This document shows positions 46,022 through 64,000 of a stretch of DNA of 64,000 nt, in pieces. Below the pieces are notes generated by a model, which was given only the letters and a program-made list of their open reading frames with translations, ran no database searches and was not told where the DNA came from. A program made the translations under genes and the position numbers. Source of the DNA: a virus. Numbering within the stretch: position 1 is the stretch's first letter; the number at the start of each line of letters is the position of its first letter. The stretch covers positions 1 to 64,000 of the IMG/VR virus record IMGVR_UViG_3300007554_000005; one strand, 5' to 3'.

Positions 46022-46720
46022 ATGGAAAAAGAAATGGTTAGTGATTCGCAGGGTGCACTTGCAGATAAGAACATCTGGTATACAACAAAAGATCCAGACT
46101 TTGTAGAGATAAGCCTAAGGTCTCTTGTACGCCCAAGTTGGCTAGACTATAGGCCAGTGTTGCAGGGTAGATATTCAAGTAGTGTCCTTAAACCACTAAG
46201 TAACTATGTAGAGAACATAGGTACTGAGCCTTCGATTGTCAGCATTATAGGGAATACAGTAAGGTTTAGGTTTTATCTTTATGCAGACATCTACCTTTTG
46301 GGTGAGAATGATAGTTTTTATAATGTAGATAGGACCTGGATGAGGCAATACTATCTTACAGACAAGCACCTCAATGATCCAGACAACCAATGTTTCGATG
46401 GAACGTTTAAGTTCTTTGTACCATGGTTTATAGAAGACAACCTAGAGGTTAGATATGAACAATGCAGCGATGTGGAGTCTCCAGTTTTAGTAGAGGCCAC
46501 TAATGACTTCTGGCATAAACCAGTTATCAATTCGGAGTCTATATCCAGACCCATGTTCTTGTCACCGCACTTTGTTTCTTTTAAATTTAAGAAATACGGT
46601 AGTCACATGGAGGATGACATTTTTGGAATACCAAGAAGGGGGGCACCAATCTTTGACATGGTAGCTTCAGTTAGTGATATAATGTTAAAGAGAATAAAGG
46701 AGCAGTATGCCCACAATTAG
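46022..46720 (+). CDS. Hypothetical protein of accessory module
   Basis: The 232-residue product begins 4 bases after the tRNA-Thr gene with no ribosome site, so its mRNA may be made by tRNA processing. It is rich in aromatic residues and beta strands ('TVRFRFYLYADIYLLGENDSF', in part; 'FKFFVPWFIEDNLEVRYEQC'). It overlaps the next gene by 14 bases. The middle faintly recalls the two 'WYK' proteins that follow, but no firm relation can be claimed. Confidence 0.55.
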   Translation: MEKEMVSDSQGALADKNIWYTTKDPDFVEISLRSLVRPSWLDYRPVLQGRYSSSVLKPLSNYVENIGTEPSIVSIIGNTVRFRFYLYADIYLLGENDSFYNVDRTWMRQYYLTDKHLNDPDNQCFDGTFKFFVPWFIEDNLEVRYEQCSDVESPVLVEATNDFWHKPVINSESISRPMFLSPHFVSFKFKKYGSHMEDDIFGIPRRGAPIFDMVASVSDIMLKRIKEQYAHN

Positions 46721-47432
46721 GTTTTACCCATTTAGCGAAGTCTCTCAGGAATTCGCACCTTTGCCACAGCCTGGCATTAAGTTTATACCAGACTGGTACA
46801 AGGCTCAGCCAGGCAACAAGGGCGATAGCGAAATGATCCCAGCAATAGGAGTAGCAGCTTCCACAGTAAAGAGATGTATGCCTATCTTCGATGCTATTAC
46901 TGCTGGCTACATCATTGTTGCACCTTGCGATATACACTTAGACGCAACAAATCCAGAAAAGCTTGAGTGGTCCATCCCTGCCCAGTTGCAATCTTTAAAG
47001 GCGGACATGTTTGCCTTTCACTCTCCAGAACAATATGAGAATTATCCAGTAGATCCAGATCAGTATCATAAACAAATTTTTAGAATTCTGCCAACATGGG
47101 CAGTAGGAACTGATGAGGGGTACAGTACCCTGTATACTAATCCATACCATTCAGATGCCTCACCACTATGGGCCTTTACGGCAATCGTAGATACTGATAA
47201 GTTTGTCACAGACGGTCATCTTTCCTTTTTGGTAAAGAAGGGATTTAAGGGAACAATTAAGCAAGGAACTCCGATTGCACAGCTAATACCGTTTAAGAGA
47301 GAGGCCTGGACATCAGAAGCAATTGATCCAGACGAGGCAAGGTCGTTCTTTGATAAGCAAAGGTTTAATCTTAGAAGTACTTTTATTAATGGATACAAAA
47401 ATAAGTTTAGGTCAAAGAAAGAATACAAATGA
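46707..47432 (+). CDS. 'WYK' beta-fold protein, first paralogue (DUF6065-like)
   Basis: The 241-residue product shares a series of motifs with the next gene: 'IPDWYKA' near residue 30, 'AITAGYIIVAPCDIHLD', 'LVKKGFKGTIKQGTPIAQ' and 'LIPFKREAW'. The pattern resembles DUF6065-type proteins that I recall from cyanophage and bacterial genomes; their function is not known to me. A GGAG ribosome site precedes the ATG and a TATAAT lies at 46678-46683. Neighbouring glycosyltransferase and hydrolase genes suggest a role in surface polymer metabolism. Confidence 0.6.
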   Translation: MPTIRFYPFSEVSQEFAPLPQPGIKFIPDWYKAQPGNKGDSEMIPAIGVAASTVKRCMPIFDAITAGYIIVAPCDIHLDATNPEKLEWSIPAQLQSLKADMFAFHSPEQYENYPVDPDQYHKQIFRILPTWAVGTDEGYSTLYTNPYHSDASPLWAFTAIVDTDKFVTDGHLSFLVKKGFKGTIKQGTPIAQLIPFKREAWTSEAIDPDEARSFFDKQRFNLRSTFINGYKNKFRSKKEYK

Positions 47433-48184
47433 GTGATGAAGAAGATTTTTTAAAAATCACCTTTGTTCCAAGCACTCCAGACCATAGGCAAATCGGCCTT
47501 CTGCCACCAGAGCCATCTACTTGGCATGTTCCAGAATGGTACAAAAGCCTTGCAAAACATAATAGGTCTAATAGTGAAAAAACCTTATACCCTGTAAACT
47601 TTATTGGATCAGACGGTGCTACTGTTGCAACAAAGCAGTGTCCGCCATTTTTGGACGCCATGACTGCTGGCTATCAGTACGTTCTAAGCGGTGATCTTCA
47701 TGTCGATATTGACGATGACGGCAAGCCAATCTTGTGGTGGGATAGCGATATGATGCTTGTAGATCACAGGCCAACCATCGAGCTGCCAGTGCCAGAGGGT
47801 CATCACCCAATACACTATGGATTTAAGATGGCATGGTACTACGAAACGCCCCCAGGGCATTCTGTATTAATAACGCACCCAATGAATAGGTACGACCTAC
47901 CATTTACTGTTCAGTCTGGCATAGTTGAATCCGACATTTGGGGCTTGCCAGTATTCGTAGCTTTCTTTCTAAAGAGGGGGTTCCGTGGAATCATACCAAA
48001 GGGCACCCCACTATTTCAGATTATTCCATTTAAAAGAGACAACTGGCAAATGCAGATTTTAGATTCTCACGAAGAAATTGAGAAGCATACCTTTGCAGCC
48101 GAAAAAAGAAGAACAAGGGCTCACGGATACTATAAGTGGTTTGCTTGGAGAAAGAAAATATTTAGGGGCTTGGGCAAGTCATGA
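47429..48184 (+). CDS. 'WYK' beta-fold protein, second paralogue (DUF6065-like)
   Basis: The 251-residue product aligns with the preceding one: 'VPEWYKS', 'AMTAGYQYVLSGDLHVDI', 'FLKRGFRGIIPKGTPLFQ' and 'IIPFKRDNW' recur in the same order. It therefore arose by tandem duplication. The genes overlap by 4 bases, and this one overlaps the glycosyltransferase gene by 4 bases, so the set is translated as one unit. The fold looks like an all-beta barrel; the function is unknown. Confidence 0.6.
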   Translation: MSDEEDFLKITFVPSTPDHRQIGLLPPEPSTWHVPEWYKSLAKHNRSNSEKTLYPVNFIGSDGATVATKQCPPFLDAMTAGYQYVLSGDLHVDIDDDGKPILWWDSDMMLVDHRPTIELPVPEGHHPIHYGFKMAWYYETPPGHSVLITHPMNRYDLPFTVQSGIVESDIWGLPVFVAFFLKRGFRGIIPKGTPLFQIIPFKRDNWQMQILDSHEEIEKHTFAAEKRRTRAHGYYKWFAWRKKIFRGLGKS

Positions 48185-49011
48185 CAGATATTAGCATAGT
48201 AATTTACTCATACAAGGGGAAAAATCTAGCTGACGTGCTGGAAAGCCTACTTGAATCTGCATCTAGCGAGATCCACATTACCGTCTATGACCAGCATCCT
48301 ATGGATAGAAAAGAAAAGCTTTCTAAGCTTCACAATATTCAGTACAGGCATATTTTTTGGGATGAAATCTTAAGCCCAACATCTTACAAGGCAGGTGGAC
48401 TAAATGATGAAAACATTGTAGCACCATATTCCATGCTTATTTCTGATGACATACAGCTTGCTGATGGCTGGGATAAAACTTTAATTAGGTATATATCAGA
48501 AAATAATAAGATAGTGTCTGGCTTTAGTAGTGGCAAGCTCATGGTTCACGATAAGTATTTCCTTCGTCAGGAGGTCATAGCCTCGGATGGATTTGCGACC
48601 ACTAACTATATAAACACCAACTTTATATTCGCCAGGACTGAAACCCTTCGAAACCTGAAGTATCCAGATGATGTAAAGTATTTTGGCGAGGCAGAGAAGT
48701 TATCAATGGATGCATTTATAAAAAATGTTGATGTCGTCTGTGCACCATCCAACATTCTGAAGAAAGATTTTGGTGACAGGACAATGGAAAATCTTTACGT
48801 GCCATTCTCGACAGAGCACAACTATAATAGTTGCATAGACATGATGCTGTCAGAAGAGTATTCTGGCTGGGTAGAGTTTCACGGCTTATCTGATAGATTG
48901 CCCAAAAAGCTACCATACCAAATAGATGATGTTTTATACAACCCCTATGACCTTAAATTTAACGATGTGGAACAAGATAGGTTTATAGGTCTAGTAAAAG
49001 CTATCTATTAA
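48181..49011 (+). CDS. GT-A-fold glycosyltransferase
   Basis: The 276-residue product begins 'ISIVIYSYKGKNLADVLESL', the nucleotide-binding start of family 2-like glycosyltransferases, and has an acidic 'SDDIQL' (Asp89, Asp90) in the place of the DxD metal site, followed by 'INTNFIFARTETL'. It resembles GlcNAc/GalNAc-type protein glycosyltransferases as much as polysaccharide enzymes. It overlaps the preceding gene by 4 bases. It should add a sugar to a protein or glycan; the acceptor is not evident. Confidence 0.7.
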   Translation: MTDISIVIYSYKGKNLADVLESLLESASSEIHITVYDQHPMDRKEKLSKLHNIQYRHIFWDEILSPTSYKAGGLNDENIVAPYSMLISDDIQLADGWDKTLIRYISENNKIVSGFSSGKLMVHDKYFLRQEVIASDGFATTNYINTNFIFARTETLRNLKYPDDVKYFGEAEKLSMDAFIKNVDVVCAPSNILKKDFGDRTMENLYVPFSTEHNYNSCIDMMLSEEYSGWVEFHGLSDRLPKKLPYQIDDVLYNPYDLKFNDVEQDRFIGLVKAIY

Positions 49012-49020
49012 TGGTATAAT
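49012..49020 (+). promoter_or_regulatory. Extended -10 promoter TGGTATAAT
   Basis: The box follows the glycosyltransferase stop directly (TATAAT 49015-49020). A short leader with CAGGAGG (49028-49034) precedes the TTG start at 49042. Confidence 0.7.
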
Positions 49021-49041
49021 ATTATTACAGGAGGCAGAGCA

Positions 49042-49680
49042 TTGAGCCATAGAATACACGTAATAGAAAACTTTATTACTCCAGAAGATGCCGCAATAAT
49101 GATGCAAGAGCAGGACAGGCCATCAGAGGTGAACCCCTACCCACCATACTACGCCGATAGGTTTGGCGGCACAGCCTTTCCATACAATAAAAGAATTTTA
49201 GACCTTCAGATAAAGTATGGAGAAATGTCTAATGAGGTTCACAAAGAGGTAAACGGTTTTCTTAACCCTATATATGTATTCAAGTCATTTGGCTCCGTAT
49301 GGAATCCAGGGAGCATGGGAGGCCTGCATGAAGACGCACAGGATCCAGAACCCTTTATTGAATGGAGTACGATCATATATCTAAATGATGAGTACGAGGG
49401 GGGAACAATATATTTCCCCAATCAAGGTGTGGAAATTTCTCCCAATAAGTACTCTGCAGTTTTTTTCCCAAGTGCTGGATCCGAGTACATCCATGGAGTA
49501 TCGAAGGTAACCTCTGGCACTAGAAGGACATGCCTATATATGCATACGAGTAAGCCAGGCCATGCAGACCCAGACTTCATTGGCGGCAGAGTTTTGACAA
49601 ATGCAAATGACTGGGAGGCACACAGACATCCACACGCTATTGAGCAGGCAGAGAGCGGCGAACCTGGTTATGGGAATTGA
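49042..49680 (+). CDS. Prolyl-4-hydroxylase-like 2OG/Fe(II) oxygenase
   Basis: TTG 49042 has CAGGAGG upstream. The 212-residue product holds 'GLHEDAQ' (His96, Asp98), 'IIYLNDEYEGGTIYFP', and 'EYIHGVSKVTSGTRRT' (His151, Arg161), the complete P4H-type active site. It is close in architecture to the gene at 53094. Such enzymes hydroxylate proline or other side chains in proteins. It is grouped with SGNH hydrolases and a carbamoyltransferase, so hydroxyl groups made here may later be decorated; that is inference. Confidence 0.85.
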   Translation: MSHRIHVIENFITPEDAAIMMQEQDRPSEVNPYPPYYADRFGGTAFPYNKRILDLQIKYGEMSNEVHKEVNGFLNPIYVFKSFGSVWNPGSMGGLHEDAQDPEPFIEWSTIIYLNDEYEGGTIYFPNQGVEISPNKYSAVFFPSAGSEYIHGVSKVTSGTRRTCLYMHTSKPGHADPDFIGGRVLTNANDWEAHRHPHAIEQAESGEPGYGN

Positions 49681-50617
49681 TGCAGACGAAATACTCCTTG
49701 ATCCACCACTAGAAGTTACTGAGTTCTATAGTCAATTTGGTTTTTCATATGAAGAGTGGTACCCTTATAAAGAAGAGTTGACTGCGTATATTGCTAAAAA
49801 GTTCTCATTGGCCCATCAGCATAAGTCAGGGGTGAATGATCTAATGCTACTTCAACCAGCAACAGTTTCTCCGTTTAATGTATACTTTACTAATAAAAAT
49901 TTAGAGTCAGTGGGGAGATCTTATGACTCAGAGTTCTCTATTAATTCTTCTGGTCTCAGGTCAGACGAATTCTCTAGTAGTCACAATGGAATGCATATGT
50001 TGTTTGCTGGCTGCTCCGTAACTTTTGGTGATGGAATGATAGAAGAGCACACTTGGCCCAAAAAGGTTTATGATAGAATAGCCTCAGAACAAAGCGTATC
50101 TGGCTACTACAATATAGCTATTCCAGGTGCAAACCACTTAAACATTTATCACCAGATATTTAAATATATTGAGCTATACGGTGCTCCAGACGTTTTATTT
50201 ATTAACTTTCCAGACCTTCTAAGGACCCTCGATGCTGGCATAGAACTTAGTGTATTAGATCGTGTTGTCGCACCAATGCACCTCGCCCTAGAACTTCTCT
50301 GCGAGGAAAAAAATATAAAGCTTATAATGTTTTCCTGGGATAAGCATGTGTTTCTAGAGGGCAGTCCTAGCAGGGACGCTGACCCACATGATCTGATACA
50401 AGGCCATGTGAACGACCCAAGGCTAATCTGGCATAAAGGATTCTACAGATTTGCTGAAAATGATAGGCTACGGCATAAGATGCAGTTTGCCCAGGCAAAT
50501 AAGGGGCATGAGCTAGAAGAATATTTCTTTAATGCATTTGATGTAGTGCACCCAGGCATTGCGGAGCAAGACTTTTATGCTAACTTTGCATATGAAAAGT
50601 GGAAAGATTCAGAGTAG
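49670..50617 (+). CDS. SGNH-hydrolase-like protein, first paralogue
   Basis: The ATG at 49670 overlaps the preceding stop; its ribosome site is weak. The 315-residue product has a nucleophile motif 'FAGCSVTFGDG' (Ser116), 'YYNIAIPGANHLNIYHQ' and a C-terminal 'DVVHPGIAEQDFY' (Asp291, His294), the SGNH catalytic set. Such enzymes add or remove acetyl and similar esters on sugars. A paralogue lies directly downstream. No signal peptide is present, so it acts in the cytoplasm. Confidence 0.7.
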   Translation: MGIDADEILLDPPLEVTEFYSQFGFSYEEWYPYKEELTAYIAKKFSLAHQHKSGVNDLMLLQPATVSPFNVYFTNKNLESVGRSYDSEFSINSSGLRSDEFSSSHNGMHMLFAGCSVTFGDGMIEEHTWPKKVYDRIASEQSVSGYYNIAIPGANHLNIYHQIFKYIELYGAPDVLFINFPDLLRTLDAGIELSVLDRVVAPMHLALELLCEEKNIKLIMFSWDKHVFLEGSPSRDADPHDLIQGHVNDPRLIWHKGFYRFAENDRLRHKMQFAQANKGHELEEYFFNAFDVVHPGIAEQDFYANFAYEKWKDSE

Positions 50618-50622
50618 TTCTA

Positions 50623-51564
50623 ATGCTTCTTATACGGGACATGTTAAAAATTCCAGCACAAGAAGAGTACCACATGTACTCTTTTGACAAGTCTGCGATG
50701 GGCACCTACTGGAAACTACAAGATAAGATAAACAAAGAGATACTCTCTGAGATATTTTATAGCCCAGACCCCTGGCCAGAAGGTCTTAGGCCGATAATTC
50801 CACCACAAGACATGAGATCATTTTTTGTTGAAAGGGAGATGCTAAGATCGCAGGGTATGGAGCTTAGTGATATATATTCTTTAAATAGTTTGAACTATCG
50901 TTCAGACGAGTTTACTAAAGATCACGATGGTATGCATGTCCTATTTGTTGGCTGCAGTATAACCTTTGGACAAGGTCTGCCACTAGATGTTACGTGGCCT
51001 AAGATAGTATATGACCACCTAAGCAATGGCTCGAAGCTGAGCGGATTTTTTAATTTAGGCCACCCAGGAATAACGAGGCTTCAAATATTGTCTCAGATAT
51101 ATGAATATATAAATAGTTATGGAATACCAGACCTAATAGTAGCAAATCTTCCAGACACTTTTAGACAGTTTGCAAAAGATTCTATTAGTGAAAAAGTAAT
51201 CTTAGATGTTAAAGATGCATTTTCTGCATCGGCAAATATCCTTACAGACTTTCTGGATTTAGTAGGATCACGCATAGTCTATACTTCTTGGAGCAATGAA
51301 AACTTTTATGCACCAGTAGATAGTCAGACTGACAAAGAGGTTTACTTCTGGCCACTAGGTAATCCAGAATCTGAAATAAAAAACTTTAAAGAAATGCCCC
51401 ATGATGACATGCAGGAATACGTAGACAATTTTAGGATAGAAGATCAGTATAAGGATATTGGAATTCTAAAGTATAGGGCCTTAGATTTAGCACACCCTGG
51501 TATAGCAGAACAATCATTTTATGCATCAGAGTTGATAAAATATATTGATGATTATGGGGTATAA
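50623..51564 (+). CDS. SGNH-hydrolase-like protein, second paralogue
   Basis: The start is uncertain: ATG 50623 follows the previous stop by 5 bases, while GTG 50599 and ATG 50641 are possible. From 50623 the 313-residue product has 'FVGCSITFGQG' (Ser112), 'FFNLGHPGITRLQIL' and 'LDLAHPGIAEQSFY' (Asp288, His291). It matches its neighbour over most of the length ('LNYRSDEFTKDHDGMHVLF' against 'SGLRSDEFSSSHNGMHMLF'). The pair arose by duplication and has since diverged at the N terminus. Confidence 0.7.
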   Translation: MLLIRDMLKIPAQEEYHMYSFDKSAMGTYWKLQDKINKEILSEIFYSPDPWPEGLRPIIPPQDMRSFFVEREMLRSQGMELSDIYSLNSLNYRSDEFTKDHDGMHVLFVGCSITFGQGLPLDVTWPKIVYDHLSNGSKLSGFFNLGHPGITRLQILSQIYEYINSYGIPDLIVANLPDTFRQFAKDSISEKVILDVKDAFSASANILTDFLDLVGSRIVYTSWSNENFYAPVDSQTDKEVYFWPLGNPESEIKNFKEMPHDDMQEYVDNFRIEDQYKDIGILKYRALDLAHPGIAEQSFYASELIKYIDDYGV

Positions 51565-51565
51565 T
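51560..51565 (+). promoter_or_regulatory. -10 box for leaderless small gene
   Basis: TATAAT overlaps the preceding TAA stop (51562-51564), and the ATG of the small gene at 51572 lies 6 bases beyond. Confidence 0.6.
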
Positions 51566-51571
51566 TATATT

Positions 51572-51658
51572 ATGAAAAAAATTATAGAAACCATAAAATT
51601 CTTTATCTGGAAAAGAAAAAATCGAGACAAGCTAAAGCCTAGAAAGTATATATACTAA
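51572..51658 (+). CDS. 28-residue basic leader-like peptide
   Basis: A very short gene encodes 'MKKIIETIKFFIWKRKNRD' and a basic end. Its ATG stands at the leaderless distance from the -10 box and its TAA overlaps the carbamoyltransferase ATG (TAATG). It may serve mainly to couple translation to the carbamoyltransferase, which otherwise lacks a ribosome site, or be an amphipathic membrane peptide. Both are inference. Confidence 0.45.
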   Translation: MKKIIETIKFFIWKRKNRDKLKPRKYIY

Positions 51659-53097
51659 TGATCATCTTGGGGGTAAACGAGACTACCCACGACGCTTCAG
51701 TAACCCTGATAAAAGATAACATAATCTTATTTGCAGGGCATGCGGAGAGGTACAGTAAAGAAAAGAACGACTGGTTTGTCAATGACTCTTTAATTGATGA
51801 TGCACTTAAGTACGGCCAGCCTGACCTCATAGCATACTACGAGCACCCAATGCTAAAGAAAACCAGGATTGCAATCAGCGGTGGTCTTGGTGGGGGAAAA
51901 CCAAAGTTTAAAGACCACCCAGCCCTACAGAGTGTTCCAGTAAAATACTTTAGCCACCACTATTCACATGCTGCTGCTGGATACTATACAAGCAGGTTTA
52001 ATGACGCAGTAATCGTAGTTCTTGATGCTATAGGAGAGTGGAACACCTCCAGCATCTGGGTAGGAGAAGGTGATAAGATCAAGAGTGTCTATAAGAAAAA
52101 CTATCCCTTTAGCTTTGGACTATTTTACTCAGCTTTTACCCAGCTACTTGGCCTAAAGCCTAACGAAGAGGAATACATTATGATGGGCATGGCATCATAT
52201 GGAAAGCCAAAAAGGTTTTATAAGAAAGTATCTGAATACTTCAGCACAATCAATGGTCAAAAATATAATTTTCACAAGGGCATTGTAGACTGGGACATTG
52301 GGGTGACGGACGTTAACAAGTACGATATAGCAGCAGCTGTTCAAAAGGTATACGAGGATAGACTATATGAGTTTATGGAGTTTGCCAAGAAAAAGACTGG
52401 CAAGCATAACCTAGTTTTCATGGGCGGATGTGCTCTTAATGCTACGGCTAACACTTCTCTCTGGAGTCAGTTCGCAGACGTATGGATTATGCCAAACCCA
52501 GGAGATGCTGGTAGCTCACTTGGAGCAGCAGCAGCCGCTTATGGCAAACACCTTAACTGGAGAAATCCCTACTTGGGTTACAATCTAGGAGAGTCTAGGT
52601 ATCCAGCAGAGTCAGCCCTTAATGCAATTCTAAGCGATGGTGTTGCACCAGTTGTATACGGCAGGGCAGAGTATGGCCCAAGAGCTTTAGGAAATAGGAG
52701 CATCCTAGCTGATCCAAGAGATCCAGAGATAAAGGACAAGGTTAATAGAATTAAGAAGAGGGAGCTATTCCGACCCTTTGCACCAGTAGTTTTAGAAGAG
52801 CACGCATCTGAATGGTTTGACCTACCAGCCACTTCGCCATATATGCAGTATACGGTTAGGTGTAAGCAGCCAAACCTGATACCAAGCGTGGTTCATGTTG
52901 ATGGAACATCTAGGGTACAGACAGTAAATAGGCACCAGCACCCAGGATTACACAGGCTACTAACCTTATTCTATAAAGAGACTGGGGTCCCAGTCCTACT
53001 AAATACTAGCCTTAACATAAAAGGTCAGCCCCTTTTAAATGACGAACATGATATAATTGAATGGGAAAAGACCTACGGGCAGAAAGTGATAAGATGA
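51658..53097 (+). CDS. Carbamoyltransferase (NodU/CmcH/TobZ family)
   Basis: The 479-residue product has the Kae1-like N-terminal domain ('LGVNETTHDASVTLI', 'SHHYSHAAAGYY' with metal histidines near 100-104, 'MGMASYGKPKRFY', 'GGCALNATAN') and the C-terminal carbamoyltransferase domain ('EYGPRALGNRSILADPRD', 'FRPFAPVV', 'VPVLLNTSLNIKGQPL'). It would transfer a carbamoyl group from carbamoyl phosphate, via carbamoyl-AMP, to a hydroxyl on a sugar or similar group. The acceptor in this phage is unknown. It overlaps the next oxygenase gene (ATGA). Confidence 0.9.
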   Translation: MIILGVNETTHDASVTLIKDNIILFAGHAERYSKEKNDWFVNDSLIDDALKYGQPDLIAYYEHPMLKKTRIAISGGLGGGKPKFKDHPALQSVPVKYFSHHYSHAAAGYYTSRFNDAVIVVLDAIGEWNTSSIWVGEGDKIKSVYKKNYPFSFGLFYSAFTQLLGLKPNEEEYIMMGMASYGKPKRFYKKVSEYFSTINGQKYNFHKGIVDWDIGVTDVNKYDIAAAVQKVYEDRLYEFMEFAKKKTGKHNLVFMGGCALNATANTSLWSQFADVWIMPNPGDAGSSLGAAAAAYGKHLNWRNPYLGYNLGESRYPAESALNAILSDGVAPVVYGRAEYGPRALGNRSILADPRDPEIKDKVNRIKKRELFRPFAPVVLEEHASEWFDLPATSPYMQYTVRCKQPNLIPSVVHVDGTSRVQTVNRHQHPGLHRLLTLFYKETGVPVLLNTSLNIKGQPLLNDEHDIIEWEKTYGQKVIR

Positions 53098-53753
53098 GTT
53101 TAGAGTTTGAAGTGTTAGACCTAGGGCTAGTGTACTATAAGAATATCATACCAAGAACAGAGTATATTGTAGATCTTGTAAAGAAACTATCAGATAGGTA
53201 CGATAGCGGAGAGCATGGCGATAATTGGACAGCAGTACGCCCATGGGAGGCCTGGTGGGATCCGCACATGCCAAAGCCATTTAACCACAAGTTCTATATA
53301 TTCCGCCATAATGAGATTCAAAATGATGACTTCTATAGGGATGACCTAATTCAAATTGCAGATTCTCTATATGGCTCACTGGATGAGGCATTTAAGCACT
53401 ATTCCGAGTCGCTATATCCTTGGGCCAAAGCGGCTGTAAAGTCAGAAGAGCCACTTGATGGTATTCTTAGGTATGAGGACGATGGGGGTCACCTCCCAGC
53501 ACACCAGGATCTGGGGGTAAGCAGCAGGCTAATTTCTACTGTCAGCTATCTAAATGATAACTACGATGGTGGAGAGATTGAGTTTAGGCAGTCTGGTGTA
53601 AAGATTAAGCCAGAGGCTGGAAGTATTGTATTTTTCCCATCAAACTATCTTTATGTCCACGAGATTATGCCAATCACTAGTGGAACAAGGTACTCTATGC
53701 CTCATTGGTATCACCATCTAGAAAAACCTAGAATGTCAGATGGCACAGAATAA
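53094..53753 (+). CDS. Prolyl-4-hydroxylase-like 2OG/Fe(II) oxygenase
   Basis: The ATG at 53094 overlaps the carbamoyltransferase stop. The 219-residue product has 'LPAHQDLGV' (His137, Asp139), 'VSYLNDNYDGGEIEFRQSG', 'GSIVFFPSNYLYVHEIMP' (His189) and Arg199 in 'TSGTRYS', a complete P4H-type site. It shares architecture and some wording with the enzyme at 49042. Tight coupling to the carbamoyltransferase suggests that hydroxylation and carbamoylation act in one path. Confidence 0.85.
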   Translation: MSLEFEVLDLGLVYYKNIIPRTEYIVDLVKKLSDRYDSGEHGDNWTAVRPWEAWWDPHMPKPFNHKFYIFRHNEIQNDDFYRDDLIQIADSLYGSLDEAFKHYSESLYPWAKAAVKSEEPLDGILRYEDDGGHLPAHQDLGVSSRLISTVSYLNDNYDGGEIEFRQSGVKIKPEAGSIVFFPSNYLYVHEIMPITSGTRYSMPHWYHHLEKPRMSDGTE

Positions 53754-56917: not shown

Positions 56918-57205
56918 ATGAGTAAGGAAGCGTGGAAGCAGGATGCGTCTTGCCTAAACTACGATGTAAACATATTCTTTGAAACCTATGAGGAAAATGA
57001 GCAGCTCCGTCCTGCAGTAGAGCAGCTTTGTGGTGGATGTCCAGTTGCAAGAGAATGTTTTGCAGTTGGAGTTTCTCAAAAGGAATACGGTGTCTGGGGT
57101 GGTGTCTATCTGGAGCATGGAAAAGTTTCCAGGGAATTTGGTCGGCACAAGACCAAGAAGCAATGGGCAGAAACATGGAAGAGGCTTACACAAAATGTAC
57201 ACTGA
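56918..57205 (+). CDS. whiB: WhiB-family Fe-S regulator
   Basis: The 95-residue product has the four WhiB cysteines Cys12, Cys38, Cys41 and Cys47 ('CGGCPVARECF') and the 'YGVWGGVYLE' turn at 57-66, followed by a basic C terminus for DNA binding. WhiB proteins are confined to Actinobacteria and their phages and act with the host main sigma factor, so this is the best host marker in the window. Phage copies can repress host whiB genes and affect superinfection; whether this one does is unknown. Confidence 0.92.
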   Translation: MSKEAWKQDASCLNYDVNIFFETYEENEQLRPAVEQLCGGCPVARECFAVGVSQKEYGVWGGVYLEHGKVSREFGRHKTKKQWAETWKRLTQNVH

Positions 57206-57967: not shown

Positions 57968-57996
57968 ACACTGTATATCTAATTTGGAGGAACACA

Positions 57997-58164
57997 ATGT
58001 TAGCACTAAAAGATGCTATACAAAAACGCAAGTATCTGTATGATGTTTGTGAGGAGTCTACTTGCTTTAATAGACAAGAAGAAACCTATACTACAACTGA
58101 AAATAGAAGCATACAATTATGCAATACACACTATCACCAAATAGCTGATGAAGTTCTTTGGTAA
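57997..58164 (+). CDS. 55-residue Cys/His-rich protein
   Basis: TTGGAGG lies 6 bases before the ATG. The product carries Cys18, Cys23, Cys42 and His45 ('DVCEESTCF', 'QLCNTHYHQ'), a possible zinc site in which the C-terminal pair resembles the end of DUF7455-like proteins. The next gene follows after 12 bases. Function unknown. Confidence 0.55.
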   Translation: MLALKDAIQKRKYLYDVCEESTCFNRQEETYTTTENRSIQLCNTHYHQIADEVLW

Positions 58165-58176
58165 AAGGAGAGAAAC

Positions 58177-58533: not shown

Positions 58534-58545
58534 ACAATATAAAGG

Positions 58546-58578
58546 ATAGCCCTTGGATATTTCCAGGGGCTATTTTTT
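58546..58578 (+). terminator. Intrinsic terminator after holin-like gene
   Basis: ATAGCCCTTGG (58546-58556) pairs with CCAGGGGCTAT (58563-58573), 11 bp with one G-U and an ATATTT loop. A run of six T (58573-58578) follows. Confidence 0.93.
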
Positions 58579-58579
58579 A

Positions 58580-58588
58580 TGCTATAAT
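58580..58588 (+). promoter_or_regulatory. Extended -10 promoter for hsp20
   Basis: TGCTATAAT (TATAAT 58583-58588) follows the terminator within two bases. The leader of about 45 bases holds a small GCTTGCCC...GGGGAGC hairpin and then AAGGAGG (58628-58634). Confidence 0.75.
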
Positions 58589-58640
58589 ATATTTGCTTGC
58601 CCATTCGGGGAGCAACAGTCGCTTTATAAGGAGGACAAAA

Positions 58641-59042
58641 ATGATGGCATCGCTATACATGAAGGATCCATTTGCAACATTCAGTCAGGACATTGACAGA
58701 ATGTTTAATGCACCACTACAGAAAACCAACTACCCACCCTACAATGTTCGTAAACTAGATAACGAACGATTCGTTATGGAATTTGCGGTAGCTGGATTTA
58801 AAAAGGAAGACATTGACATCTCTGTCGAGAAGTCTATCCTAACCGTAAAGGGCGAACTAGCCGAGTCTGATGATAGTGATTACCTGTATAAGGGAATTGC
58901 TGGACGAAAGTTTGTTCGCTCGTTCTCACTGCCAGAATACTTTGAGGTGGGGAGAGCAGGTATGTCAGACGGCATTCTTTACATTGACTTGTACAAGGAT
59001 GTTCCAGAAGAGAAGAAGCCAAAAACTATCGCTATCGATTAG
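58641..59042 (+). CDS. Small heat-shock protein (Hsp20/alpha-crystallin)
   Basis: ATG 58641 is chosen for its AAGGAGG site; an in-frame TTG at 58593 lies at the expected transcript start and has none. The 133-residue product has the alpha-crystallin domain: 'FVMEFAVAGFKKEDIDISVE', 'SILTVKGELAE', 'FVRSFSLPEYFEV' and the closing 'GILYIDLYKDVPEEKKPKTI'. It would hold unfolded proteins, perhaps virion subunits in a stressed host. It has its own terminator-flanked promoter, so it is expressed alone. Confidence 0.93.
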   Translation: MMASLYMKDPFATFSQDIDRMFNAPLQKTNYPPYNVRKLDNERFVMEFAVAGFKKEDIDISVEKSILTVKGELAESDDSDYLYKGIAGRKFVRSFSLPEYFEVGRAGMSDGILYIDLYKDVPEEKKPKTIAID

Positions 59043-59046
59043 TTAG

Positions 59047-59055
59047 TGGTATAAT
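59047..59055 (+). promoter_or_regulatory. Extended -10 promoter for structured RNA / glycosyltransferase
   Basis: TGGTATAAT (TATAAT 59050-59055) lies right after the hsp20 stop. Transcription should begin near 59061-59063, at the base of the hairpin element. Confidence 0.7.
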
Positions 59056-59060
59056 TAAAA

Positions 59061-59148
59061 GGTCCCCACACAGGGCAAGGGTTTGCTAACCTTAGGATGA
59101 TTAGTTACCATTTTCTGGGCCAATCCAGGGTCGCTGTGTGGGGGCTTT
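59061..59148 (+). ncRNA. Candidate structured RNA or leader element
   Basis: CCCCACACAG (59064-59073) pairs perfectly with CTGTGTGGGG (59134-59143), enclosing two further hairpins: AAGG-GTT/AACCTT at 59077-59093 (one bulged G) and CTGG/CCAG at 59115-59128 with loop GCCAAT. A promoter directly upstream would start the RNA at this stem. The short CTTT after the stem is a poor terminator, so it may be a leader of the gene at 59168 or a processed small RNA. I recognise no known riboswitch or tRNA in it. Confidence 0.55.
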
Positions 59149-59167
59149 AACTAAGTAAGGTACTGCA

Positions 59168-60166
59168 TTGCTATATAATAATTCTAAAGATTCTATAAAC
59201 AATCCTCTATACGACTTTCTTACTTTCCGTAAAGAAGACTACATAATTCATGCCCATGCAGGAATTAATGGTCTAGAGCTTATAGTTGATCAAAGCAGTA
59301 CAGATCCTTTAGATGCTGCATCGGACTTAAGGTCCGAAACAGAAAAGCTTGTTGTTGTAATTATGCCATCTATTGCACATACCATATTAGACGGTATAGC
59401 CCTTATGGCAGAGTGGTTTGACGCATACCCAGAAGCAGAGATTATCATTTTAGAAGATCTATATATTCATAACCCCAAAGACCCTAGGTCGGTTAAGTAT
59501 GACACAGACGTTCTTGATGTATGCATAGCTATACTCCAGGAACGTGGTGCAAAAATTACAAGGATAACTGGGAAAATATTGATAAATAACTTTTATGAAG
59601 TTTCATCACCAGGATTTTCCATACCTAAGACCGTACATACCTACAGGGCTCTAGGCTCATTGGCAGATGGTCTTGCTACCTCCGAGAAGCCATATAGAAA
59701 AGTATACATCTCTAGATCTAAAATTAACGGCAGGGGCTTTTCAGATGAACACTATACAAATAATTCTATGCTTACAGACGACTGCCGAGTGTATAATGAA
59801 GAGCACCTTGAGCAGCTTTTTGTAGAGATGGGATTCGAGATTGTTTACTTTGAAGAGATGGGAAGCTTTGTTGAGCAGATGTCCATAATGAAAGAATCTA
59901 AAATTGTTGCTGGTGTAAGTGGTGCTGGATTAACCAGCTCAGTATTCATGAGACCAGGAACCACGGTAGTTGAGATTTCTACACTAATTCTTGCTCCAGA
60001 CTCAGCACGCCGACTTCGTCCTAGCTGGCACCACCACCTATCGGATCTAGCCTTTTCAGTCAACCTAAATAAGGTTTCAGTACCAGTTGTTGAATACAGA
60101 GATGGAATTGATGTGGCAAGTAGAATTAGATCTACCCCAATGTTTGACTATCTAAAGAATTATTAA
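59168..60166 (+). CDS. Family GT61-like glycosyltransferase
   Basis: It starts at TTG with AAGG 7 bases upstream. The 332-residue product contains 'KVYISRSKINGRGFSDE', 'LEQLFVEMGFEIVYFEEM', 'IMKESKIVAGVSGAGLTSSVF' and 'MRPGTTVVEIS', the C-terminal signature of GT61 (DUF563) enzymes. Those transfer xylose or other sugars to glycans or proteins. Its stop overlaps that of the convergent oxygenase gene (TTAA), with no terminator between. Confidence 0.8.
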   Translation: MLYNNSKDSINNPLYDFLTFRKEDYIIHAHAGINGLELIVDQSSTDPLDAASDLRSETEKLVVVIMPSIAHTILDGIALMAEWFDAYPEAEIIILEDLYIHNPKDPRSVKYDTDVLDVCIAILQERGAKITRITGKILINNFYEVSSPGFSIPKTVHTYRALGSLADGLATSEKPYRKVYISRSKINGRGFSDEHYTNNSMLTDDCRVYNEEHLEQLFVEMGFEIVYFEEMGSFVEQMSIMKESKIVAGVSGAGLTSSVFMRPGTTVVEISTLILAPDSARRLRPSWHHHLSDLAFSVNLNKVSVPVVEYRDGIDVASRIRSTPMFDYLKNY

Positions 60167-60735
60167 GCAAAGTCAATATTTAGAATACACCTGAACTCAT
60201 TATTTACTGGGGATGATGATGCATGGTATACGTTGCCATTAAAAACTACTCCTCTGCCTGCTACAGGGTTAACCCTAACATCTTCGCTAAATGATTCTGG
60301 CACCTGTTCGGACAGCGTTTCATTAAAAAATACAGTGTCTCCGTCAGAGTTATTTATATAATACAGGAATACTTTATGTTCAGAGTCAAAGTCAACGTGG
60401 GGGGTGTGATACCCAGAAGAAGAAAAAGATCTGGGCAACCAGTTTAGCTTAACTCTGATAATTTTATTAACCTCTATCCTATGCTTCAGTGTGAAGGCCC
60501 TAAAGACCTGCATAAAATATTCATAGGCCTGAGTACCCTCTCTAAGTCCTGCTGCAAACTGATAGCTCTGGGTAACATTTTGGTCATCAACTGCATATGG
60601 CCCATTTGGGGTATCTGTTCGATATGCAAGGGTCCATGGAATGTCTAAACCATTTATAATTACCCTATCAGATATGTCCCTGACGGCGGCATCTGGCAAA
60701 AAGTTATCGTCTATTAGCACGTTGCTCTCTTTCAT
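60163..60735 (-). CDS. 2-oxoglutarate/Fe(II) oxygenase, minus strand
   Basis: ATG at 60735 is taken as start; it overlaps the upstream HNH gene by 32 bases, and a longer form would cover more of it. The 190-residue product has 'YHTPHVDFDSEH' (His113, Asp115), 'FLYYINNSDGDTVFF', 'GRGVVFNGNVYHASSSP' (His171) and Arg182, a complete HxD...H...R site. It resembles the two enzymes at 32 kb in size and layout. It is one of only two minus-strand genes. Confidence 0.8.
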   Translation of the reverse strand: MKESNVLIDDNFLPDAAVRDISDRVIINGLDIPWTLAYRTDTPNGPYAVDDQNVTQSYQFAAGLREGTQAYEYFMQVFRAFTLKHRIEVNKIIRVKLNWLPRSFSSSGYHTPHVDFDSEHKVFLYYINNSDGDTVFFNETLSEQVPESFSEDVRVNPVAGRGVVFNGNVYHASSSPVNNEFRCILNIDFA

Positions 60736-60955
60736 ATGTTCTTTTCTTATGGCAGTTGGAGCAAACAACGTCACACTTACTTACTTCCTGCCAAGCAGCT
60801 TCCCGACCATATTTTTTCAAAACACGATAGACTATGTCCACCTTCTTTTTCTCTGGGCGGTGATCAAATTCAAGGATATAGTGGGGGTATCTGACCTCAC
60901 AGTCATGGCAACCCTTACTCTCCTTATAAGCTTGAAACTCTGCAAATATTGACAT
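60704..60955 (-). CDS. Small HNH-type zinc endonuclease-like protein
   Basis: ATG at 60955 lies 8 bases after a minus-strand TATAAT, so it is preferred to the TTG at 60961. The 83-residue product has 'CHDC' (Cys16, Cys19), 'LEFDHRPEKKK' (His32) and 'CSNCHKKRTYER' (Cys65, Asn67, Cys68, His69), the pattern of HNH nucleases with a zinc core. It is small and lacks other domains. It may be a homing-type or packaging nuclease, or a regulator. Confidence 0.75.
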   Translation of the reverse strand: MSIFAEFQAYKESKGCHDCEVRYPHYILEFDHRPEKKKVDIVYRVLKKYGREAAWQEVSKCDVVCSNCHKKRTYEREQRANRR

Positions 60956-60963
60956 GTACAAAT

Positions 60964-60969
60964 ATTATA
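60964..60969 (-). promoter_or_regulatory. Minus-strand -10 box, divergent pair
   Basis: Read on the minus strand, TATAAT lies 8 bases before the ATG of the HNH gene. It faces away from the plus-strand box at 60984-60989 with only 14 bases between them. Confidence 0.65.
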
Positions 60970-60980
60970 CACCATTATCC

Positions 60981-60989
60981 TGGTATAAT
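60981..60989 (+). promoter_or_regulatory. Plus-strand extended -10 promoter, divergent pair
   Basis: TGGTATAAT (TATAAT 60984-60989) precedes the ATG at 61000 by 10 bases, allowing at most a few bases of leader. Its -35 region would overlap the minus-strand -10 box. Confidence 0.7.
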
Positions 60990-60999
60990 TGTTTTCATA

Positions 61000-61851
61000 A
61001 TGAATAAACTTAATTTAGATTATGGAAGCTTTATATCCAGAAGCTTTAACTCTGTTACTGTATCTGGAGATGAAGTTATAAAGTCTTCCAGAAATTTAGA
61101 AAAGATTATTAATGAGCACGCATACTTTTATAGTATATCTGACGATTTAAAGCATTTCATGGTTCAGCCCTATCAGTTGTCTATCTCAGAAGGTAGGGCA
61201 AGCTATAGGATGAAGTTCTGGAGATCTCCAGACGCAGGAGGTCTTTATTCATCTAAAAGCCTGGAGATGTCTGACTTTGTAAAGATTGTGGACTCTGTAG
61301 ATTCATTTAAGAAAGCAGCTAAGAGAAATACAAGGACGACAGCTAATTCCTGGAACAGTATGCTTCAGTCAACAACAATAAAAGCAAGGTCAAGGGTGAC
61401 TGACTTTGTTAGCGATCGTGCCATCCCACTTTGTGACAGGCTTGAAGAGCACATTCTTAATATCACACCCTATAGTATAGACAGCATAGAGTCACACGGT
61501 GACCTTTGCCTGTCAAATATAATTCTTTGTGAAGACGGTATGGTTAGATTTATAGATCCAAGGGGCAGTGACAGCATCTGGATGGATGAGTATTATGACA
61601 TGGCTAAGCTGAGCCAGTGCATCTTGGGTGGATATGACTTTATAGTTAATGATGTCCCAGAGAATCATAGCAGAGATATACAGGAATATTTCTTGCAATA
61701 CATAAAGTCTGTTGGACTTTCATACGAGATGCTACGTATATATGAGGCATCTTTGTTTATATCGATGTGCCCACTACACTCGGATAGACCAGACCATGTA
61801 GAAAAGTTTTTAGATGCTGCTGAAAAGATTTTGATGGAGCTGGGGGCATAG
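61000..61851 (+). CDS. APH/LicA-like small-molecule kinase
   Basis: ATG 61000 fits the promoter; an in-frame upstream start would lie before it. The 283-residue product has the kinase motifs 'SHGDLCLSNIIL' (His166, Asp168, Asn173) and 'RFIDPRGSD' (Asp186), typical of aminoglycoside-phosphotransferase and choline-kinase folds. It overlaps a sugar-nucleotidyltransferase gene by one base. The pair would phosphorylate a small alcohol or sugar and then load it onto a nucleotide, like LicA-LicC for choline. The substrate is not known. Confidence 0.75.
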   Translation: MNKLNLDYGSFISRSFNSVTVSGDEVIKSSRNLEKIINEHAYFYSISDDLKHFMVQPYQLSISEGRASYRMKFWRSPDAGGLYSSKSLEMSDFVKIVDSVDSFKKAAKRNTRTTANSWNSMLQSTTIKARSRVTDFVSDRAIPLCDRLEEHILNITPYSIDSIESHGDLCLSNIILCEDGMVRFIDPRGSDSIWMDEYYDMAKLSQCILGGYDFIVNDVPENHSRDIQEYFLQYIKSVGLSYEMLRIYEASLFISMCPLHSDRPDHVEKFLDAAEKILMELGA

Positions 61852-62513
61852 TGAATATTCTACTGCTTATGGCAGGAGCAGGAAGCAGGTTCGCTGGCAG
61901 TAGATACAGCCTACCAAAACCACTGATAGAAATTAATGGCAAGCCAATGTACGAGCATGCCATAGAATCACTTGGGCTAGATGGAATGGTAATAGCAGTC
62001 TCACGCTTCCAGCTGGAAAGAAATAACTACTTCGTAATAAATGTTGACAGAGTTTTAGATGGCCCAGCTGTTAGTGCACTATTAGCTAGAGATTATATAA
62101 ACAATGATGAAGAGCTTGTAATAATGAATTCTGATCAGATGATAGAGTGGAACCCCTCAGACCTGAGCCTAGCTCAAGCACACGACGGTGGACTTATGCT
62201 ATTCAAGGCAGGCGGTAATAGATGGTCCTTTGCAAGAGTGATAGATAACAGGGTGGTTGAAGTGGCAGAGAAAGATCCTATTAGTGAGGATGCTTTGGTG
62301 GGAATACACTACTGGAAGCGTGGAAAAGATTTTGTTAAATATGCTGAACAAATGATTTCTAGGAATGACAGGGTAAACGGAGAGTTTTATATTGCACCAG
62401 TTTACAACTATGCTATTAGTGATGGCTTAAGCATTGTTCCTATCTACGTTAGCAAGATGCACGACCTAGGTACGCCACAAGCCCTTGACAGGTATCTAGC
62501 AGATAGGATATAA
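61851..62513 (+). CDS. Nucleotidyltransferase (sugar/choline phosphate type)
   Basis: It begins at GTG overlapping the kinase stop. The 220-residue product starts 'ILLLMAGAGSRFAGSRYSLPKPLIEI', here in two parts: the GAGSRF nucleotide loop (9-14) and Pro-Lys-Pro-Leu (22-25). A metal-binding Asp lies in 'VIMNSDQMIEW' (about 95). These are the marks of NTP-transferases such as LicC or RmlA. It would make an NDP- or CDP-activated group from the product of the adjacent kinase. Confidence 0.8.
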   Translation: MNILLLMAGAGSRFAGSRYSLPKPLIEINGKPMYEHAIESLGLDGMVIAVSRFQLERNNYFVINVDRVLDGPAVSALLARDYINNDEELVIMNSDQMIEWNPSDLSLAQAHDGGLMLFKAGGNRWSFARVIDNRVVEVAEKDPISEDALVGIHYWKRGKDFVKYAEQMISRNDRVNGEFYIAPVYNYAISDGLSIVPIYVSKMHDLGTPQALDRYLADRI

Positions 62514-62514
62514 T
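62485..62514 (+). promoter_or_regulatory. Consensus promoter inside nucleotidyltransferase 3' end
   Basis: TTGACA (62485-62490), an 18-base spacer and TATAAT (62509-62514) overlap the last codons of the gene. The next ATG (62521) is 6 bases after the box, so the message should be leaderless. Confidence 0.8.
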
Positions 62515-62520
62515 TTAAGC

Positions 62521-63105
62521 ATGAAGAATATTCTAATTATTTCTGCACACCCAGATGACTTAGAGATGTCATGTGGTGGATCTGTTGCCAAATGGGTGTC
62601 AGAGGGGCACAATGTTGTAAACTTAATTCTTGTTTCCGATGTTAAGCAGATAGACTCCCTTGGCTTTGCTAGGGAGCACCTGGGCTACGAAGCAATCCTC
62701 TGGCCAGGAGATAGGGGTAGCCTCTCCGTAAACTCTGATATGATTGCAGACATCGAGGCACACTTCGTAGACGTAGACTTTGATAGAATAGTTACTCATT
62801 GGAGAGAGGATTGGCATCAGGATCATCAGGTTTGTCATAACCTAGGAAGAGTGTTGGCCCGTAAGCAGCCCACTGAGCTTTGGTATATGTCTTCTCACCC
62901 ATATCATCTTAAGTACAGGGAATTTAGCCCAGACATATATGTTGACGTAAGCGAGCACGCTCACCTAAAGTATAAGGCTATTACTGAGTACGACAACTTG
63001 CCAGGTTACTGGGAGACTGGCGTTAGGTCACACGATAGCTGGCGTGGAACATTTATTCATGCTAAAAAGGCAGAGGTATTCATGGCAGGCAATCTTCTAG
63101 GATGA
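62521..63105 (+). CDS. PIG-L/LmbE-family deacetylase
   Basis: The 194-residue product has the zinc motif 'SAHPDDLEMSCGG' (about 8-20) and 'HWREDWHQDHQVCHNLGR' near 93-110, typical of GlcNAc-PI/LmbE deacetylases. It would remove an acetyl group from an N-acetylated sugar. It is predicted to be leaderless from its own consensus promoter, and its stop overlaps the start of a carbamoyltransferase gene (ATGA), so the two are coupled. Confidence 0.88.
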   Translation: MKNILIISAHPDDLEMSCGGSVAKWVSEGHNVVNLILVSDVKQIDSLGFAREHLGYEAILWPGDRGSLSVNSDMIADIEAHFVDVDFDRIVTHWREDWHQDHQVCHNLGRVLARKQPTELWYMSSHPYHLKYREFSPDIYVDVSEHAHLKYKAITEYDNLPGYWETGVRSHDSWRGTFIHAKKAEVFMAGNLLG

Positions 63106-64000
63106 AGGTCCTTGGCGTAAACATGTCGCATGACGGTAGCGTATGCGTTATCGAGGATGGTTCAGTAATCTTTTACCAAGAAGAGGAAAGGATTACACAC
63201 GAGAAGCATACTACTGGTTTCATAAATAGCTTTGCCAAGGCCATGAGACTCCATGACCCACGGCATATTGTTTTTGTTGGTGCCTTCCCATATGAGCTAA
63301 ATGCCAGAGACCTGCTTTCATACCTACTTGTATCAATTGGTAAGACTAAGCATCTTAGTAACAATGAGAAGTACCAGGCATACTGGCTCAGAGACCATCA
63401 CTTGGCACATGCAAACGTTGCATTTTATAACTCAGGCTTTGGGGATGCTGGGATCTTGGTGGCAGATGGAGCAGGCCAAGCATTCTATGACGGAGAGAAT
63501 CTTTACAGGGAATCCGAAACTATCTACCATGCCTCTAAAGATATTGAGACTCTTCATAAAAACTTGATTACTCAGCATTCATCCTGGAGATACGGGGAGC
63601 TTGCGATTGAGCTAAGCAGCATGCCACACTTCACCAAATGCTCTGAGAGGCTGCCACTAAATTACCCCTATACAATATACCCCTCCAATTTGAGTTTAGG
63701 TAAAATGTTCAGTGCAGCAGGCATTAAAATATTTAATTCTTATCATAATGCAGGAAAAGTTATGGGCCTATCTGCCTATGGCGTTGATAATCCATCAGAT
63801 CCCAGGGCATTTGTTGATGGAGTTGCCAACCCAGAAATTTTGAATAGCGATATCTCGGATGAGAATTTGGCATATAGGGTACAGAATGATTCTTTGGATG
63901 TATCTATTAGCCTTATTAAGAAAACTATAGAGATGTCTGGCAGCAAAAATATTTGCCTTAGCGGTGGGTACTTTCTTAACTGTGTCAATAACTACAAGTA
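63102..64000 (+). CDS. Second carbamoyltransferase (3' end outside window)
   Basis: The frame opens at ATG 63102 and stays open to the window end, about 299 residues. It reads 'VLGVNMSHDGSVCVIEDG', 'RDHHLAHANVAFYNSGF', 'ILVADGAGQAFY', 'LGKMFSAAGIKI', 'KVMGLSAYG' and 'ICLSGGYFLNCVNNY', the Kae1-like N-terminal domain of NodU/CmcH carbamoyltransferases. It differs strongly from the copy at 51658 and so has a separate origin. The C-terminal domain must lie downstream. Confidence 0.88.
   Translation, partial: MKVLGVNMSHDGSVCVIEDGSVIFYQEEERITHEKHTTGFINSFAKAMRLHDPRHIVFVGAFPYELNARDLLSYLLVSIGKTKHLSNNEKYQAYWLRDHHLAHANVAFYNSGFGDAGILVADGAGQAFYDGENLYRESETIYHASKDIETLHKNLITQHSSWRYGELAIELSSMPHFTKCSERLPLNYPYTIYPSNLSLGKMFSAAGIKIFNSYHNAGKVMGLSAYGVDNPSDPRAFVDGVANPEILNSDISDENLAYRVQNDSLDVSISLIKKTIEMSGSKNICLSGGYFLNCVNNYK

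Follow-up and report, generated by a model that had tools for sequence, protein, structure and literature searches.

A conserved phage gene block pairing a prolyl-hydroxylase-like oxygenase with a GT60-type glycosyltransferase, and its possible role in protein glycosylation

The virus record IMG/VR IMGVR_UViG_3300007554_000005 is linear and 69,378 bases long. Its first 64,000 bases (this stretch is called the window here) carry two clusters of predicted sugar-modifying genes, and the first of these, cluster 1 (46.0-53.8 kb), forms a true unit whose conservation among related viruses exceeds chance. It comprises a gene named here by its start, 46022, two WYK proteins (WYK1 and WYK2), a glycosyltransferase (GT), a 2-oxoglutarate (2OG)-Fe(II) oxygenase (2OG1), two SGNH-like proteins (SGNH1 and SGNH2), a carbamoyltransferase (CT1) and a second oxygenase (2OG2). 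The explanation that best fits the predicted glycosyltransferase family, its modelled fold, the 2OG family and the cytoplasmic character of the proteins is a soluble, cytoplasmic, hydroxylation-coupled O-glycosylation of protein, in which the sugar would be trimmed with carbamoyl and acyl groups. This reading is tentative, with a probability of roughly 0.37. An original prediction had proposed that both clusters together build and carbamoylate an unusual glycan on virion proteins or the infected cell, and a role in building and carbamoylating a glycan is well supported by the enzyme families.

To establish gene order, 240 IMG/VR loci were fetched via three queries and the proteins of the record were mapped onto them, giving 54 distinct WYK1 loci, 44 of which had enough flanking sequence for an order count. 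The exact order 46022-WYK1-WYK2-GT-2OG1 was kept in 41 of these 44 distinct relatives, and CT1 lay nearby in 35 of the 36 loci having 7 kb downstream. The co-occurrence expected by the original prediction thus holds for cluster 1. The inventory of gene families in that prediction, confirmed by Pfam, PHROG, NCBIfam, PDB and residue evidence, omitted gene 46022, which starts the block and is as constant as the rest, standing at the same place in 43/44 distinct relatives. Within 46022-53753 the genes are tightly packed and mostly overlap or are closely spaced, while the flanks vary: the gene directly before the block is CT1 in nine loci, a terminase in four and other genes elsewhere. CT1 also occurs without the block, accompanied there by SGNH and 2OG genes. 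The median identity to the window is 70% for CT1, 63% for WYK2, 62% for 2OG1 and 56% for WYK1, against only 35% for 46022 and 33% for GT, suggesting that the last two evolve fast beside constrained neighbours. No gene fusion proving a 2OG-GT or GT-CT link was found among 5,097 open reading frames (ORFs).

The assignment of the glycosyltransferase rests on its homologues and its predicted structure. PF11397 was matched by 18 of 35 homologues of the cluster 1 GT (best 3.7e-10), and two homologues scanned singly exceeded its cut-off of 21 bits (L104 with 26.2 and L111 with 33.9). When the cluster 1 GT family was compared using hhalign with bona fide GT60 proteins, having strong PF11397 matches and a DSH motif, a probability of 95% was obtained. 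An AlphaFold2 model of the cluster 1 GT reached a predicted local distance difference test score (pLDDT) of 90.5, and the fold search with this model was led by polypeptide N-acetylgalactosamine (GalNAc)-transferases, with the collagen enzymes LH3 (a lysyl hydroxylase/glycosyltransferase) and COLGALT1 also found. Characterised GT60 enzymes transfer N-acetylglucosamine (GlcNAc) onto threonine in Trypanosoma mucins or onto hydroxyproline in Skp1. By these profile and model comparisons the cluster 1 GT belongs with PF11397/GT60, the family of the Skp1 hydroxyproline-GlcNAc-transferase, and transfer to a polypeptide is predicted. When 50,697 phage records were searched by tblastn, homologue L111 as query returned no relative of the cluster 1 GT, and the cluster 2 GT60 described below gave a single partial match, next to a carbamoyl transferase in the jumbo phage XacN1.

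The oxygenase 2OG1 starts 30 bases past GT. Its His96, Asp98, His151 and Arg161 are invariant in 29 sequences, so that the iron triad and the 2OG-binding arginine are present, and its profile matches prolyl 3-hydroxylase 1 (1.2e-7) and bacterial prolyl 4-hydroxylases (2e-4) in the PDB. In 2OG2, His148, Asp150 and His200 are invariant in 36 sequences. A pairing of the same kind recurs elsewhere. In contig L168 (also G031), which is near-identical to the record, cluster 2 finishes with a 2OG gene and, 2 bp further on, a GT60 gene with a DSH motif, and PF11397 lies above its cut-off at two places. In the sister records L327, L328 and L329 the cluster 2 GT60 family matches PF11397 with E 1e-18 to 2e-24, and two of the three genes have a 2OG neighbour; in several phages a GT60 gene directly follows CT1. 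Overall, a 2OG gene was directly adjacent at 15 of 61 distinct GT60 loci compared to 6 of 293 distant ORFs (p ~5e-5, ignoring relatedness). This adjacency supports a functional pairing. The original prediction listed WYK, glycosyltransferase and 2OG genes but missed both this recurring pair, which is the most telling feature, and the dUTPase-like fold of the WYK proteins. It also counted three 2OG oxygenases, where four are clear (49042, 53061, 60163 and, past the window, 65854) and one more, at 43647, is doubtful.

The remaining enzymes of cluster 1 would modify the sugar. CT1 contains both Carbam_trans_N and Carbam_trans_C, and its catalytic-region residues and the GPRALGNR and RPFAP motifs are conserved in 53 sequences. 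The SGNH pair shows a Ser/Asp/His set conserved in 31 homologues: in SGNH1 the block I Ser139 and the block V His317 are invariant and the block V Asp314 is invariant or nearly so (24-31 sequences); profile support is sub-threshold (GDSL lipase 4rw0, E 0.0015), no invariant Asn was recognised in block III, and the copy number of the gene varies among relatives.

On this basis a sequence of steps may be proposed, deduced from enzyme family and, for the transferase, also from fold. First, 2OG1 would hydroxylate a side chain on a protein of the phage or its host, with 2OG2 perhaps acting at another site. The GT60-type transferase would then add a GlcNAc-like sugar from a nucleotide sugar to the new hydroxyl or to a Ser/Thr close by; in protists, Skp1 is modified in this way by PhyA and Gnt1. 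Finally, the SGNH enzymes would add or remove O-acyl groups and CT1 would carbamoylate a sugar hydroxyl. The WYK proteins and 46022 would be constant partners, perhaps forming a nucleotide- or nucleotide-sugar-binding complex. The likeliest benefit would be to shield proteins of the virion or the host from being recognised. A narrower version, considered improbable, would place in a widespread group of freshwater actinophages a viral equivalent of Skp1-type hydroxyproline glycosylation. Its glycan would be both carbamoylated and acylated, and the dUTPase-fold paralogues 46022, WYK1 and WYK2 would form a dedicated complex serving as the nucleotide-sugar- or substrate-binding core.

Several observations weigh against protein glycosylation. 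The window GT itself stays below the PF11397 cut-off, matching only Glycos_transf_2 at E 0.01, and it has no DSH motif. Adjacent 2OG genes are missing at 46 of the 61 GT60 loci, and PF13640 enzymes also act on small molecules. A collagen-like acceptor was sought and rejected, the proteins of the record containing no Gly-X-Y repeats; proline-dense stretches occur only in the tape-measure and an M23/LysM protein, and no acceptor protein was identified. The modelled WYK fold, discussed below, points towards nucleotides rather than proteins. The GT fold search also returned the polysaccharide GlcNAc-transferases KfiA and TarP.

The last of these matches is also consistent with decoration of the host surface or of free glycans, in which an actinobacterial polysaccharide or nucleotide-sugar precursors would be modified by acylation, carbamoylation and amino sugar addition. 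The phage receptor would thereby be altered and superinfection blocked, an effect also presumed of the sugar clusters in large cyanophages. This is possible, if on the unlikely side. NodU-type carbamoyltransferases act on small sugar-containing acceptors, and the closest solved structures are NovN, GdmN and TobZ; the carbamoyltransferase of cyanophage P-SSM2 lies beside heptose kinase, isomerase, epimerase, 2OG and tail-fibre genes, and cluster 2 resembles nucleotide-sugar synthesis. However, the module proteins have no membrane segment except one weak stretch in the GT61-type glycosyltransferase of cluster 2, and neither a flippase nor a polymerase nor a lipid-carrier enzyme was recognised, which argues against de novo synthesis of a surface polysaccharide. 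This reading would also leave unexplained why a prolyl-hydroxylase-like enzyme is constantly paired with a GT60-type transferase. As for virion proteins as the target, the proposal was not supported: tail-fibre adjacency was considered as evidence of virion decoration and rejected, as cluster 1 follows ribonucleotide reductase genes (38460, 40559) and a terminase-like gene (36270) in the record, and in these phages it comes after ribonucleotide reductase or terminase genes rather than after tail-fibre genes.

The WYK proteins belong to the phrog_7084 family and probably to DUF6065. DUF6065 (PF19541) was matched by 22 of 51 family members (best 9.1e-10) and by window WYK1 not at all at E 0.1. 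The AlphaFold2 model of WYK1 (pLDDT 92.5) matched dUTPases with a Foldseek probability of 1.0 and a VIA Z of ~10 over 115-130 aligned residues; on this model the WYK proteins have the dUTPase/dCTP deaminase fold. Motif 3/4-like dUTPase residues are kept, while the motif 2 Arg-Ser and motif 5 are missing. A PF00692 dUTPase search of the record gave no match, and hhalign of the WYK profile against two phage dUTPases gave a probability of 4.7%, with no detectable sequence relation, so that the link to dUTPases rests on the fold. The 46022 protein has no Pfam, PHROG or NCBIfam match; hhalign against the WYK family gave P 2e-5 and a probability of 77% over 77 columns, and it may be a third, diverged WYK member. 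A hetero-trimer of the three paralogues is speculation. WYK relatives are present on many alphaproteobacterial chromosomes. No relatives of the 2OG, CT, SGNH or GT genes were seen next to the 80 bacterial matches, which therefore give no functional hint.

WYK and its neighbours could also be nucleotide-metabolism genes that merely lie beside unrelated sugar genes, with no single pathway involved. At least one WYK is present in each of the 31 records from the CT1 query, sometimes far from CT1, and a canonical dUTPase was found in 4 of 9 CT1-bearing records without the WYK1-WYK2 block against 0 of 22 with it. Such an explanation is nevertheless doubtful: the order of the block stays exact while its flanks change, the WYK proteins are without catalytic dUTPase motifs, and in other phages, too, copies of WYK are repeatedly found next to GT60, NTPT and CT1 genes. 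The idea that WYK replaces a phage dUTPase was set aside as suggestive only, since the nine other records also have WYK and the catalytic motifs are missing. The dUTPases in question are L330:5135-5563 and L331:4918-5340 (G026 and G030), with others in G027 and G029; three of them lie 2-4 kb from CT1.

DNA base hypermodification, the alternative named by the original prediction, would begin with oxidation by a 2OG enzyme, either of thymine (the base J case) or of a methylated base, followed by glycosylation by the GT and capping by the carbamoyltransferase. The dUTPase-like WYK fold is compatible with this, and WYK homologues adjoin ribonucleotide reductase in Halorubrum phage HF2 (L003:8863-9747) as well as in a phage-like estuarine contig that was binned as Chitinophagaceae (L247:1911-2645), where the reductase was assigned by eye. 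The last gene of the record is a DUF1599 ('nucleotide modification associated') gene, and a base-J-like, thymine-oxidising route, which is conceivable here, needs no methyltransferase. Known carbamoyl-type DNA modification, however, needs a hydroxymethylated base. Neither PF00145 (C5-methyltransferase) nor PF00303 (ThyA-type/dCMP-hydroxymethylase) was found in any of 31 records, with positive controls, which is no proof since many of the searched records may be fragments. TET/JBP (PF12851) exceeded its curated cut-off in 0 of 32 records, sub-threshold matches being largely PF13640 genes that score far higher there; 2OG2 scored 18.1 bits for Tet_JBP against a cut-off of 34.9. Some phages are known to have carbamoyltransferases that act on 5-hydroxymethylcytosine and belong to the same Pfam families of O-carbamoyltransferase (MetaGPA; PMC8670742), but these accompany PF00303-type enzymes, whose homologue is missing from all 31 records searched. 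A comparison with TobZ W408/G421/R423 as a test for DNA-type carbamoyltransferases was left unused, as the positions were inferred by offset and the text of PMC8670742 does not give the DNA-type residues; CT1 and the second carbamoyltransferase (CT2) both retain the GNR motif's Gly and Arg, taken by that offset as G421 and R423. Classical DNA hypermodification is disfavoured by these searches and appears quite unlikely, in agreement with the preference of the original prediction for a glycan.

Cluster 2 (from 59.2 kb to beyond the window; Table 1) adds a GT61-type glycosyltransferase, a 2OG oxygenase (2OG3), a kinase, a nucleotidyltransferase, a PIG-L deacetylase and CT2. Over the two clusters, 2OG1, 2OG2, CT1, GT61, the nucleotidyltransferase and PIG-L score above their Pfam cut-offs. 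The kinase matches APH NCBIfam models at ~2e-5 and, by phmmer, a PDB aminoglycoside 3'-phosphotransferase at E 0.003. CT2 has both Carbam_trans domains, with RPFAG in place of RPFAP. Past the window the record continues with the 2OG gene at 65854, a UDP-sugar dehydrogenase, an epimerase and the DUF1599 gene, and L168 extends beyond the end of the record with a ThyX-like gene, the 2OG and GT60 genes and an opposite-strand alpha/beta-hydrolase-like gene (the ThyX-like and hydrolase-like labels come from Pfam matches of L327 homologues).

Table 1. Predicted features of the two clusters, with the basis of each assignment.
Feature	Coordinates	Strand	Assignment	Basis
46022	46022..46720	+	First gene of the block, 232 aa; C-terminal half weakly WYK-like	hhalign
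WYK1	46707..47432	+	phrog_7084 family, probably DUF6065; predicted dUTPase/dCTP-deaminase-like fold	phrog_7084 3e-42; AlphaFold2 model
WYK2	47429..48184	+	Paralogue of WYK1, 29% identical	phrog_7084 1.1e-34; alignment
GT	48181..49011	+	GT-A glycosyltransferase; predicted divergent member of the PF11397/GT60 (GlcNAc) group	Homologue profile matches, model, hhalign
2OG1	49042..49680	+	Prolyl-hydroxylase-like 2OG-Fe(II) oxygenase	PF13640 3.2e-8
SGNH1	49601..50617	+	GDSL/SGNH-like acyl hydrolase or acyltransferase; true start probably ~49670	Catalytic residues, weak profiles
SGNH2	50599..51564	+	Second SGNH-like protein	26% identical to SGNH1
CT1	51658..53097	+	NodU/TobZ-type O-carbamoyltransferase	PF16861 4.9e-54, PF02543 7.2e-40
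2OG2	53061..53753	+	2OG-Fe(II) oxygenase; true start probably 53094	PF13640 1.2e-16
GT61	59168..60166	+	GT61-type glycosyltransferase	PF04577 2.5e-17; one weakly hydrophobic stretch
2OG3	60163..60774	-	2OG-Fe(II) oxygenase, cluster 2	phrog_274 7.5e-34; PF13640 below cut-off
Kinase	60949..61851	+	APH-fold small-molecule (sugar) kinase	phrog_21938 1.3e-22, phrog_24015 6.3e-18
Nucleotidyltransferase	61851..62513	+	Sugar-phosphate nucleotidyltransferase	PF12804 (NTP_transf_3) over cut-off; PDB 4evw nucleoside-diphosphate-sugar pyrophosphorylase 4.5e-20
PIG-L	62521..63105	+	PIG-L-type N-deacetylase	PF02585 3.5e-12
CT2	63102..64000 (to 64724 in the record)	+	Second NodU-type carbamoyltransferase, 540 aa	C-terminal domain over Pfam cut-off

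The proposal that the two clusters form one system did not hold beyond a sub-lineage. Two carbamoyltransferases were found in only 4 of 31 CT1-bearing records and PIG-L in exactly those four; a random identical four-record set has a chance of 1 in 31,465, a figure to be read with the relatedness of these phages. The kinase, nucleotidyltransferase and GT61 genes come and go among relatives, so that the 'two-part module' is a feature of a lineage and no rule. Independent occurrence in related phages, which according to the original prediction would refute it, was therefore not seen within cluster 1 and was largely seen for the link between the clusters. In the sub-lineage, the kinase, nucleotidyltransferase, UDP-sugar dehydrogenase, epimerase and PIG-L would make and trim an extra activated amino sugar, and GT61, the second 2OG and GT60 pair and the second carbamoyltransferase would also be used.

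Some further genes lie in or near cluster 2. The small alpha/beta-hydrolase-like gene opposite the 2OG/GT60 pair (L168:19777-20463 on the minus strand, L327:13383-14066, L328:1864-2568 and L329:4976-5662) is possibly a deacylase of the module. The gene U64978 (64978-65847 in the record, L002:5979-6848), with a phrog_2859 domain, often has 2-3 tandem matches in relatives, with copies in L153, L155 and L161. A small heat-shock (Hsp20-like) gene at 58593-59042 stands beside cluster 2 and recurs near 2OG genes in relatives. A perfect TTGACA-18-TATAAT was seen at 62485-62514, just upstream of the PIG-L and CT2 genes; promoter-like and terminator counts in a scan of the region were at background.

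The record has a G+C content of 42.7%. Upstream genes encode a head protease, major head protein, tape measure, DNA polymerase III alpha and a RecA/UvsX-like recombinase, together with the terminase-like and class I ribonucleotide reductase genes given above. A putative lipoprotein metallopeptidase (44457-45770; Peptidase_MA-like below cut-off, fast evolving) lies directly before the tRNAs and cluster 1. The ORF at 43647-44372, with a His-rich WHDH motif, a 2OG-like C-terminus and no Pfam match, is kept in the closest relatives only and is a possible, doubtful fifth 2OG-type enzyme. A nucleotide search of the phage collection for relatives gave tRNA-like best matches only. A WhiB-like protein was read from the sequence at 56918; whiB is confined to the actinobacterial phylum and has been used to call actinophages (PMC6802176), suggesting that the hosts of the freshwater virus group carrying the cassette are probably actinobacteria.

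Among known systems, the Skp1 pathway of Dictyostelium and Toxoplasma likewise combines a 2OG prolyl-hydroxylase-like enzyme with a PF11397/GT60 transferase (PhyA, then Gnt1) and has no membrane anchors. In contrast, the phage system has no Skp1, its genes are adjacent, and it adds carbamoyl- and acyl-handling enzymes and dUTPase-fold proteins. The large T4-like cyanophages P-SSM2, S-SSM7 and S-SM2 also have a NodU-type carbamoyltransferase, 2OG enzymes, a sugar kinase, a nucleotidyltransferase and an epimerase, whereas the P-SSM2 genes lie beside tail fibres and heptose genes in a cyanobacterial virus. Since carbamoyltransferase and 2OG sugar clusters are thus already known, the cassette is a variation on a known theme. 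The F1 mycobacteriophage Maravista is likewise an actinobacterial phage with its own glycosyltransferases, for which capsid glycosylation has been proposed; its abstract mentions neither 2OG or carbamoyltransferase genes nor a GT60 pairing (PMC11256854). In the literature searched, no paper was found that links phage prolyl-hydroxylase-like enzymes with GT60-type transferases; the hydroxylate-glycosylate-cap chemistry is known from amoebae and parasites and found in no described phage.

If protein hydroxylation and glycosylation is the correct reading, viruses of abundant freshwater bacteria would hydroxylate, glycosylate and carbamoylate protein, a modification so far tied to protists. It would also give a function to DUF6065/phrog_7084, which is present in haloviruses and many alphaproteobacterial chromosomes. 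The role of 2OG oxygenases and carbamoyltransferases in aquatic phages has so far been guessed, with DNA repair, lipopolysaccharide (LPS) and 'stuffer DNA' among the proposals (PMC3037559), and the same reading would suggest a common role for them. The five-gene set is small enough to express and assay.

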